A stretch of 64,000 nucleotides of DNA, taken from the NCBI RefSeq assembly GCF_004087915.1, contig NZ_CP035108.1, forward strand, positions 558,001 to 622,000, written 5' to 3'. Source of the DNA: Geovibrio thiophilus (GTDB lineage: Bacteria; Chrysiogenota; Deferribacteres; Deferribacterales; Geovibrionaceae). Below the pieces are notes generated by a model. The model saw nothing but the letters and a program-made list of their open reading frames with translations. It did no database searches and was not told the DNA's origin. The translations under genes and the position numbers were made by a program. Below, piece by piece: positions 5,227-63,600 of the stretch. Position 1 is the stretch's first letter. Each line of letters starts with the position of its first letter.

Positions 5227-5721
5227 ATGAGACATATCATATCCGTTCTTGTTGAAAACAAATTCGGCGTCCTCTCCCGCATATCCGGTCTTTTCAGCGG
5301 CAGAGGCTACAACATAGAAAGTCTTTCAGTCGGCGAGACAGTGGAAGAAGGGCTCTCCATAATGACTATAGTCACCAGAGGCGATGACGCAGTGATCGAG
5401 CAGATCATCAAGCAGCTCCGCAAGCTGGTGAATGTTATAAAAGTGCGTGATGTTGTTTCCATGGATCACATAGAGCGTGAAATGCTCCTTGTGAAAGTCC
5501 ACGCCAACGGACGCACAAGACCCGAGGTCTTCAACATCGTCAGCACGTTCAGGGCGAAAACTATCGACCTTAACGGCGAGTCGCTTGTTATCGAAATCAC
5601 GGGCACAAAAGATAAGAACAGCGCTTTTCTGAAGGTGATGGAACCCTACGGAATAATAGAAGTCGTCCGCACCGGAAGCGTCGCTATCGCAAGGGGCAGC
5701 AAGGCTACCAGCGATAGATAG
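5227..5721 (+). CDS. ilvN: Acetolactate synthase, regulatory (small) subunit
   Basis: 164 residues. The N-terminal ACT domain (about 1-75, beginning HIISVLVENKFGVLSR) binds valine for feedback inhibition. The C-terminal ALS_ss_C domain (about 80-158) activates the large subunit. A GGGGGCC tract precedes the ATG. The last 26 bases of the gene (5695-5720) are repeated exactly at 5844-5869 after an inserted repeat element; the present stop TAG uses the first base of the insert, whereas the downstream copy would end TAA. The insertion therefore apparently preserved the protein sequence exactly. Confidence 0.96.
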   Translation: MRHIISVLVENKFGVLSRISGLFSGRGYNIESLSVGETVEEGLSIMTIVTRGDDAVIEQIIKQLRKLVNVIKVRDVVSMDHIEREMLLVKVHANGRTRPEVFNIVSTFRAKTIDLNGESLVIEITGTKDKNSAFLKVMEPYGIIEVVRTGSVAIARGSKATSDR

Positions 5722-5869
5722 GGCTTATTGCCTCCGGCAGTTCTATGGATGGAACTGCGCCGTGCGGAGCGAAGCCGTGTTTACCACGGCGCGAGCGTGT
5801 GCGGAAATTTTCAGGATGATAAATTTCCGCCGGTAAGTTAGACGGCAGCAAGGCTACCAGCGATAGATA
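5695..5869. repeat. Single copy of the structured repeat element, flanked by a 26-bp direct repeat
   Basis: The interval 5721-5843 is a member of the family that forms the 13.9-14.9 kb array: a GTTCTATGGATGGAAC arm, a CTGCGCCGTGCG...GCGAGCGTGTG middle arm with a CCGTG/CACGG stem, and a last arm GGAAATTT / AAATTTCC around the loop TCAGGATGAT. It is bounded by a perfect 26-bp direct repeat (5695-5720 and 5844-5869) made from the end of ilvN. No open reading frame for a transposase is present. It lies between ilvN and ilvC. Confidence 0.85.
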
Positions 5870-13361: not shown

Positions 13362-13591
13362 TTTATCCTCCTGTGCTCCTTTTCTTTAATAATACAATAT
13401 AAATCGTGACATTTCTCAACGATTTTCTGTGATGAGAATTAATATAGTTTAATTTTTAAAAAATACAAAGGATAATTTTTATTATTTAGCTTATTTTTTA
13501 GGATGTAAATAAAGTCTGATGTGAAAAGTGTTGAAAATAAAGCCGATGCCGAATAATATCTTAGTGCTCTTAAAAACCTGCGAGGTGTTTC

Positions 13592-13768
13592 ATGAAACTT
13601 AGCGCTCCGAAATTTATAACATGGCTTTTGGGAACATTTTTAGGTGTTCTAGGGCTTCTCATCTACTTCGGTGTGGTAAGCATCAGTGTGATGACCTTCA
13701 GTCCGTTCTGGCTTATCGTGGCGGGCTTCGGAATACTCGCTGTTGCGCCCCTCTTTGCAGGGCTGTAA
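13592..13768 (+). CDS. Small two-helix membrane protein
   Basis: 58 residues starting MKLSAPKFITWLLG, with two hydrophobic segments (about 9-33 and 37-57) joined by a short turn FSPFW. The upstream sequence GCGAGGTGTTTC gives a moderate ribosome-binding site. It has no family I recognise and stands alone between the encapsulin operon and the repeat array. Codon use resembles neighbouring genes, which together with the ribosome-binding site is the reason for calling it. Confidence 0.6.
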   Translation: MKLSAPKFITWLLGTFLGVLGLLIYFGVVSISVMTFSPFWLIVAGFGILAVAPLFAGL

Positions 13769-13840: not shown

Positions 13841-13910
13841 CGCCAAGAGTAAAATACTTTCTATGGACGCGAGAGAAACATTATTGTGATTATCGTAAGC
13901 GTTGAGGCAT

Positions 13911-14907
13911 AAACAGTTCCATGGATGGAACTGCGCCGCGCGAAGCGAAGCCGTGTTTACCACGGCGCGAGCGTGTGCGTAAAAAACACAGGATGTAGTT
14001 TTTGGAGCGGTAAGACAGATACTGCGCCGTGCGCAGCGAAGCCGTGTTTACCACGGGGCGAGCGTGTGCGTAAAAAACACAGGATGTAGTTTTTGGAGCG
14101 GTAAGACAGACACTGCGCCGTGCGAAGCGAAGCCGAACAGGTTCGGCGCGAGCGTGTGAGGAAACGGACAGGATGTACCGTTTCTGAACTATCATAAAAC
14201 AGAGAGATTGCTTTACTTCCGTTCGCAATGACGCAAACAGTTCCATGGATGGAACTGCGCCGTGCGAAGCGAAGCCGAACAGGTTCGGCGCGAGCGTGTG
14301 AGGAAACGGACAGGATGTACCGTTTCTGAACTATCATAAAACAGAGAGATTGCTTTACTTCCGTTCGCAATGACGCAAACAGTTCCATGGATGGAACTGC
14401 GCCGTGCGAAGCGAAGCCGAACAGGTTCGGCGCGAGCGTGTGAGGAAACGGACAGGATGTACCGTTTCTGAACTATCATAAAACAGAGAGATTGCTTTAC
14501 TTCCGTTCGCAATGACGCAAACAGTTCCATGGATGGAACTGCGCCGTGCGAAGCGAAGCCGAACAGGTTCGGCGCGAGCGTGTGAGGAAACGGACAGGAT
14601 GTACCGTTTCTGAACTATCATAAAACAGAGAGATTGCTTTACTTCCGTTCGCAATGACGCAAACAGTTCCATGGATGGAACTGCGCCGTGCGAAGCGAAG
14701 CCGAACAGGTTCGGCGCGAGCGTGTGAGGAAACGGACAGGATGTACCGTTTCTGAACTATCATAAAACAGAGAGATTGCTTTACTTCCGTTCGCAATGAC
14801 GCAAACAGTTCCATGGATGGAACTGCGCCGTGCGAAGCGAAGCCGAACAGGTTCGGCGCGAGCGTGTGAGGAAACGGACAGGATGTACCGTTTCTGAACT
14901 ATCATAA
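13911..14907. repeat. Array of eight structured repeat elements (91-bp then 142-bp period)
   Basis: The core word CTGCGCCG begins at 13931, 14022, 14113, 14255, 14397, 14539, 14681 and 14823: two 91-bp steps, then five exactly 142-bp steps. The 142-bp units appear identical. Each core has a middle hairpin (GCCGAA/TTCGGC, or GCCGTG/CACGGC in the first two) and a last hairpin with loop ACAGGATGTA (stem GAAACGG/CCGTTTC, or AAAAAC/GTTTTT in the first two). The 142-bp units add a CAGTTCC/GGAACTG arm and the segment AGAGATTGCTTTACTTCCG. Open frames crossing the array are by-products of the repeat. No transposase or spacer structure is present. Confidence 0.93.
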
Positions 14908-14912
14908 ATAAG

Positions 14913-14946
14913 AAAGGCGGCTCCCTTTTCAGGAAAGCCGCCTTTT
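14913..14946. terminator. Terminator downstream of the multiheme cytochrome gene
   Basis: Perfect 10-bp stem AAAGGCGGCT/AGCCGCCTTT. On the minus strand it is followed by CTTATTTAT and lies 24 bases beyond the cytochrome stop codon. Confidence 0.88.
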
Positions 14947-63209: not shown

Positions 63210-63419
63210 ACTGATCAAAGACATTAGCAGGCTTGTTTATGTCTGTAAAATCCCCCTCAAGAGCTCCTTCTCCGGTTATGCTCATTTACATTATCTGTCC
63301 GCCTCTGTCAGGGATCGCACTGGAAGAGGGCAGCTGAACCGCCTGCTTTTTAATCAAGAGCTTTTTTATCTTCTTAATCCTAAATCAGGGTTGACTTATC
63401 CGTCTCTTCATAGCAGAAT

Positions 63420-63600
63420 AACTCATCGGGAATCAGGGAAGCGCGGTTAAAATCCGTCACTGCCCCCGCAACTGTGAGCCGGACGAAAGCTCCTTTTCTT
63501 TGCCACTGTCAGCCGTACGGGAAGGCGGAGCGATTAGGGTGACGGCGAGTCAGGATACCTGCCCCGTGGAATAAACTGCCCATCGGAGGGATGGATGAGA
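63420..63600 (+). ncRNA. Adenosylcobalamin (B12) riboswitch
   Basis: The conserved blocks of the cobalamin aptamer appear in order: GGGAAGCGCGGTTAAAATCC, CTGCCCCCGCAACTGTGAG, GCCACTG (63502), GGGAAGGCGG, and the B12 box AGTCAGGATACCTGCC (63549-63564). The closing P1 helix is CTCATC (63422-63427) with GATGAG (63594-63599). It controls the ribonucleotide reductase gene downstream. Binding of adenosylcobalamin normally lowers expression. Confidence 0.96.

Follow-up and report, generated by a model that had tools for sequence, protein, structure and literature searches.

CsrA is antagonized by a few dedicated sRNAs, found largely in Gammaproteobacteria, or by proteins such as FliW. The consensus derived by SELEX for CsrA, RUACARGGAUGU, came from ligands that mostly had four or fewer contiguous pairs, and the CsrB RNA carries 22 GGA sequences (PMC7652899); a second consensus, A/UCANGGANGU/A, was derived from RsmE (PMC6849547). 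The TwoAYGGAY RNA (RF01731), made of two hairpins with AYGGAY-type loops and a tandem G-A in the stem, is predicted to bind CsrA (PMC4333381), while RsmU of Xanthomonas is an RsmA-sequestering RNA with GGA motifs that is processed from the 3′UTR of an mRNA (PMC7694677). A review of the field regards it as undecided whether any species uses FliW and sRNAs in combination (PMC7652899). It is against this background that we describe an array of hairpins in Geovibrio thiophilus, and the family to which it belongs, which looks like a CsrA sponge of a kind not recognized before, scattered among genes.

An array and its family

The window, that is, the whole stretch of 64 000 nucleotides that was analysed, contains, as assembled, eight units spanning 13909–14899 (Table 1), as delineated with a covariance model (R1) built from 37 aligned units. 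An earlier note on this DNA had proposed eight structured elements with periods of 91 and then 142 bp, and this is borne out by the model and by TRF, which reports a 91-bp period ×2.3 at 13930–14135 and a 142-bp period ×5.6, with 100% match, at 14112–14908. Its two 91-bp steps hold at the left anchor ACTGCGCC (13930, 14021, 14112) and not at the GGA loop (13989, 14080, 14169), where the second step is 89, because unit 3 is a hybrid that joins a 5′ part of the 91-bp type to a core and a 3′ hairpin of the 142-bp type. The 142-bp units are indeed identical, without a single mismatch at lag 142 from 14254 to 14908, and this exact identity upholds the proposal of recent amplification or homogenization. 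As for the idea that two repeat types were fused before amplification, a second type does lie inside the 142-bp unit, AGAGATTGCTT..CGCAATGACG, with a dispersed family of its own that is present also in order mates devoid of the hairpin element; the fusion is, however, only one case of a general pattern, since the spacer of many arrays is duplicated local DNA.

Table 1. Features of the window, with positions counted from its first nucleotide
Feature	Positions	Strand	Evidence or remark
Left copy of 26-bp direct repeat (end of ilvN)	5695..5720	+	One copy in G002 empty site
Single copy of the element between ilvN and ilvC	5733..5832	+	R1 95.6 bits; neighbours by Pfam
Right copy of 26-bp direct repeat	5844..5869	+	G002 alignment resumes at 5844
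58-aa membrane-protein-like ORF upstream of the array, same strand, candidate host transcript	13592..13768	+	Sequence; orthologous frame in genus mate G001
Unit 1, complete: H1 (loop CCATGGATGG), H2, H3 (loop ACAGGATGT)	13909..14009	+	R1 107.1 bits; fold
Unit 2, 91-bp type, without H1 5′ arm; H2 and H3 present	14011..14100	+	R1 69.3 bits; GGA loop at 14080
Unit 3, hybrid: 5′ part of 91-bp type, core and H3 of 142-bp type	14102..14189	+	R1 71.4 bits; lag analysis
Dispersed repeat of a second, unrelated kind (CAGAGAGATTGCTT..TTCGCAATGACG), which takes up most of the 142-bp spacer and is present in each spacer	14200..14233	+	Sequence; separate distribution in relatives
Unit 4, complete, first of five identical copies spaced by 142 bp	14233..14331	+	R1 101.1 bits
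Unit 5	14375..14473	+	R1 101.1 bits
Unit 6	14517..14615	+	R1 101.1 bits
Unit 7	14659..14757	+	R1 101.1 bits
Unit 8	14801..14899	+	R1 101.1 bits
13-bp stem resembling an intrinsic terminator, immediately behind the array, with T-rich flanks	14913..14945	.	Called on − strand; + strand reads GCCGCCTTTTGTATTTTG

The second dispersed repeat, AGAGATTGCTTCACCCTTTCAGGGTTCGCAATGACG (14200–14233 and the other spacers), often adjoins the hairpin element; it occurs without it in three order mates that lack csrA, and forms an array with a 116-bp period in a further genome (G005).

The minus-strand frames of the array have no credible Pfam domain (best E 0.12, below the cut-off), the periods of arrays elsewhere are mostly not multiples of three, and the stems covary; the view that the region is non-coding and its frames artefactual therefore stands. 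Promoter-like sites are absent from the array and three lie upstream at 13456–13559, about as many as in shuffles. The array is probably the 3′UTR of the 58-aa ORF, a frame with no Pfam match, and would end at the stem that follows. The units themselves were rejected as terminators: no T run follows H3, and the terminator-like stem after the array is separate. Elsewhere in the window, a cobalamin riboswitch is found at 63371–63580 (86.7 bits).

The array is not a local oddity. In the window's genome (3.0 Mb), R1 finds at least 150 copies, all at E 1.2e-10 or better, and no fewer than 79 per genome in two genus mates, these counts resting on searches and targeted stretches; BLAST with the element gives 77 matches in many places of the same genome, and 31 and 23 in the genus mates. 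The mapped set comprises 192 units at 79 sites, 23 of them single and 56 arrays of two to eight units, so that genome-wide dispersal, proposed as a check on the first observation, is found at 78 further mapped sites; the array by itself is far beyond chance. Five perfect 142-bp copies are easily mis-assembled, and one might wonder whether the length of the array is an artefact built from a single element; this is scarcely credible, as the assembly is one contig and the 56 arrays, often with imperfect copies, have differing periods, which also makes an artefact unlikely for the family.

A known RNA family, which the earlier note had envisaged as another way to explain the unit, did not emerge: Rfam scans, at gathering and at permissive thresholds, gave nothing convincing over the units, the models of the CsrB, RsmX/Y/Z and TwoAYGGAY families did not match the element, and RF01731 had no match genome-wide at E up to 10. 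A plasmid or phage origin was likewise discarded, since blastn with one unit matched nothing in a plasmid or a phage collection, and a search of one open-access library retrieved no dispersed CsrA-binding repeats.

Conserved loops on variable stems

Each unit, of about 100 nt, is a succession of three hairpins. H1 and H2 are separated by the conserved linker GCGCCGTGCGnAGCGAAG, H2 and H3 by the likewise conserved CGCGAGCGTGT, and in H3 a base bulges out 3′ of the two pairs that close the loop. That these are structured elements, as first suggested, is visible in the covariation of their arms, with a score of 0.511 against 0.149 in shuffled and at most 0.107 in slid alignments, in the 93.7% of cells that pair, against 73.9% in shuffles, and in two-sided changes at 19 of 27 pairs, so that the hairpins are kept by compensatory change. 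We regard both the family and its structure as firmly established. G-U pairs account for only about 1.4% of the paired cells, and covariation alone therefore leaves room for upkeep of a palindrome at the DNA level: the stems could be kept there, or perfected by palindrome-correcting replication, instead of being selected in RNA. Together with the dispersed, extragenic nature of the palindromes, this rarity of G-U pairs would fit REP/REPIN-like DNA hairpins, mobilized or recognized by a DNA-binding protein, for instance a RAYT transposase. Yet REP/RAYT systems depend for recognition on their stems, which are conserved, and on a tetranucleotide at the foot, whereas here the arms vary and the loops are conserved; the units show a strand bias relative to genes, and Y1_Tnp has no match in the genome or in two genus mates, all of which makes such DNA hairpins a very improbable explanation.

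What is conserved is the pair of outer loops: both stay CA(N)GGA(N)G, as in the consensus published for CsrA/RsmA. H1 loops read CCA(T/C/A)GGA(T/C/A)GG, and H3 loops fall into two subtypes, ACAGGA(T/C)GT or CCA(T/A)GGATGG, both of the CsrA type. In the 37-unit alignment the GGA of the loops never varies, and it is present in at least 80–87% of H1 and H3 loops by an automated count that miscalls truncated units; it sits in a hairpin loop within a CANGGANG or ACARGGAUGU context. The loops CCATGGATGG and ACAGGATGT match the SELEX (PMC7652899) as well as the RsmE-derived consensus (PMC6849547), and the window's array counts 14 such hairpins. Two observations argue in the other direction: H3 stems are often longer than those favoured among SELEX ligands, and in RsmU, the one characterized 3′UTR RNA found to sequester RsmA, neither binding nor function was abolished when GGA was changed to AAU (PMC7694677).

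The genome has one csrA, adjoining fliW, with the RNA-binding residues L4 and R44 kept. Weaker R1 matches extend to other genera of the same family and to one further family of the order; divergent elements of other genera keep the two outer GGA hairpins while linkers and arms differ. R1 matched nothing in nine relatives with no csrA match, against elements in 14 of the 31 relatives that have it (P = 0.016, phylogenetically uncorrected). Evenly spaced 400-kb samples were drawn from four relatives, of which two have csrA and two lack it, and were listed for perfect hairpins with stems of 8 bp or more (a 400-kb sample of the window's own genome was left out of the test as not unbiased, since it happened to fall outside the mapped sites). 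Loops of the form CA(N)GGA(N)G were carried by 18/64 and 8/125 strong hairpins in the csrA-bearing pair (26/189; none in the reversed-loop control) and by 0/86 and 1/78 in the csrA-lacking pair (1/164), a difference with a pooled P of 7e-7, phylogenetically uncorrected and with only two genomes on the csrA-lacking side. With the loop consensus, this co-occurrence, and divergence with retention of the loops, CsrA is well supported as the predicted ligand.

Two side observations were made within the order. Another genus (G003) has its own GGA-hairpin repeat family, with 117 TCCANGGANGGA sites against three in the reversed control. In a different family of this order, four loci have divergent GGA elements that lie directly upstream of start codons, not after stop codons; around one of them a Shine-Dalgarno-like sequence is repeated.

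Placement, spread and function

In the window's genome the elements mostly follow genes, in sense orientation. At 62 of 79 sites they share the strand of the gene upstream (P = 4e-7), sense outnumbers the opposite orientation by 31 to 12 at tandem-gene sites, and convergent gaps outnumber divergent ones by 31 to 5, on the basis of simple ORF calls that miss short genes and scored the window's array as having an opposite-strand neighbour despite the sense 58-aa ORF. As many as 25 units start 5 nt or less from the upstream stop codon. This placement would suit a role in cis, hairpin-bound CsrA stabilizing or tuning the mRNA that carries it, with no global sink. Such a local role is, nevertheless, improbable: one message would hardly seem to need an array of as many as eight units, and in the genus mate G002 the element is absent from both window sites, so that the two host genes concerned can do without it there.

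At the position of the single copy (5733–5832), G002 has an empty site with one copy of the 26 bp, an observation made at this one site; at that of the large array its flanking matches are 20 bp apart, and the other genus mate, G001, has other DNA. Direct repeats of local DNA (score of at least 18) flank 10 of the 79 sites, against 0.5% in a site-swapped control, and at some sites they are 18–53 bp long; in 18 of the 56 arrays the spacer repeats the DNA that immediately precedes unit 1, in many cases the last part of the adjacent gene. We infer that insertion duplicates local DNA and that the array then grows by recombination between the direct repeats; the family is apparently mobile. REP/RAYT elements and retroelements were set aside as a source, Y1_Tnp (PF01797) and RVT_1 (PF00078) having no match in the genome.

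This apparent mobility raises the possibility that the family is simply selfish and MITE-like, in which case CsrA binding, if any, would guard its own RNA or limit harm to the host without regulating it, and the 3′ positions would reflect selection against insertions elsewhere. High copy number, the local direct repeats, the empty site in G002, recent identical arrays and species-specific families all fit this picture. We nevertheless hold it to be unlikely, although the least improbable of the alternatives: the two enzyme families just named are absent, no conserved terminal ends were found, and selfishness alone leaves unexplained why the CsrA consensus is kept in the loops across unrelated linkers and across phyla.

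The explanation that we favour, and that we consider probable, is that of a dispersed family of three-hairpin elements with outer loops of the CsrA type, mainly borne by 3′UTRs, which would bind CsrA dimers and form a sink coupled to gene expression. Copies would be transcribed mainly as 3′ untranslated regions, the array behind the 58-aa ORF with transcription stopping at the 14913–14945 terminator; H1 and H3 would then present the CsrA/RsmA recognition loop, unit copies would bind CsrA dimers, and hundreds of UTR sites would jointly do what CsrB or RsmZ do from single sRNAs. Titration of CsrA from UTRs is, judging from sequence, the most likely function. The first interpretation of the array is partly supported, having missed the CsrA/RsmA consensus of the outer loops and the large family.

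Occurrence in other phyla and relation to known systems

A pattern with two CsrA-type loops matched 53 stretches in public genomes, some of them chance or coding. Many of the others are clear multi-hairpin elements, among them those in Psychrosphaera, Rhodanobacter, Stenotrophomonas, Thiotrichaceae and Brevinematales; TCCATGGAYGGA occurs 1 to 40 times in each of 15 such genomes, against one control match in all, and csrA is present in 14 of the 14 distant genomes tested that have similar elements. As these genomes were picked by a related pattern, wide occurrence is demonstrated and frequency is not. In Gammaproteobacteria, as seen at six loci, elements often start right behind an intrinsic terminator, where its T run ends. 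Transcription of such post-terminator elements, outside the phylum, would need read-through or another promoter, which counts against the general scheme. We may tentatively suggest, with rather less confidence than for G. thiophilus, that csrA-bearing bacteria of several phyla carry independent families of mobile, dispersed CsrA-binding hairpins, which would spread a CsrA sponge over hundreds of mRNA UTRs, acting throughout the genome as a layer of decoys that differs from CsrB-type sRNAs and exists alongside FliW. Should the explanation favoured above hold, ordinary mRNAs would jointly set CsrA activity by way of a repeat family that spreads through the genome, and the biology of mobile elements would be linked with global post-transcriptional control. 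With csrA adjoining fliW and at least 150 units with CsrA-type hairpins in one genome, the question of joint action of FliW and RNA becomes directly testable.

Compared with REP/REPIN and MITE-type repeats, the element is likewise a dispersed extragenic palindrome that forms arrays; it differs from them in its conserved loops and variable arms, in the lack of a RAYT and in the long locus-specific direct repeats of some sites. With CsrB/CsrC and the RsmX/Y/Z sRNAs it shares several GGA-loop hairpins per RNA, and the 14 of the array are comparable to the 22 GGA sequences of CsrB (PMC7652899). Yet each of those is one sRNA gene, whereas the element, which has no Rfam match, is scattered in at least 150 copies, most of them downstream of genes, over a genome that has fliW. 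Its GCGA/GCGA internal loop could also form tandem G-A pairs, as in TwoAYGGAY. RsmU is a single locus, for which the part of the report considered here describes no repeat (PMC7694677). While matching no known family in the searches run, the element appears to work in the manner of sRNAs of the CsrB/RsmZ type, of TwoAYGGAY and of the 3′UTR-derived RsmU.
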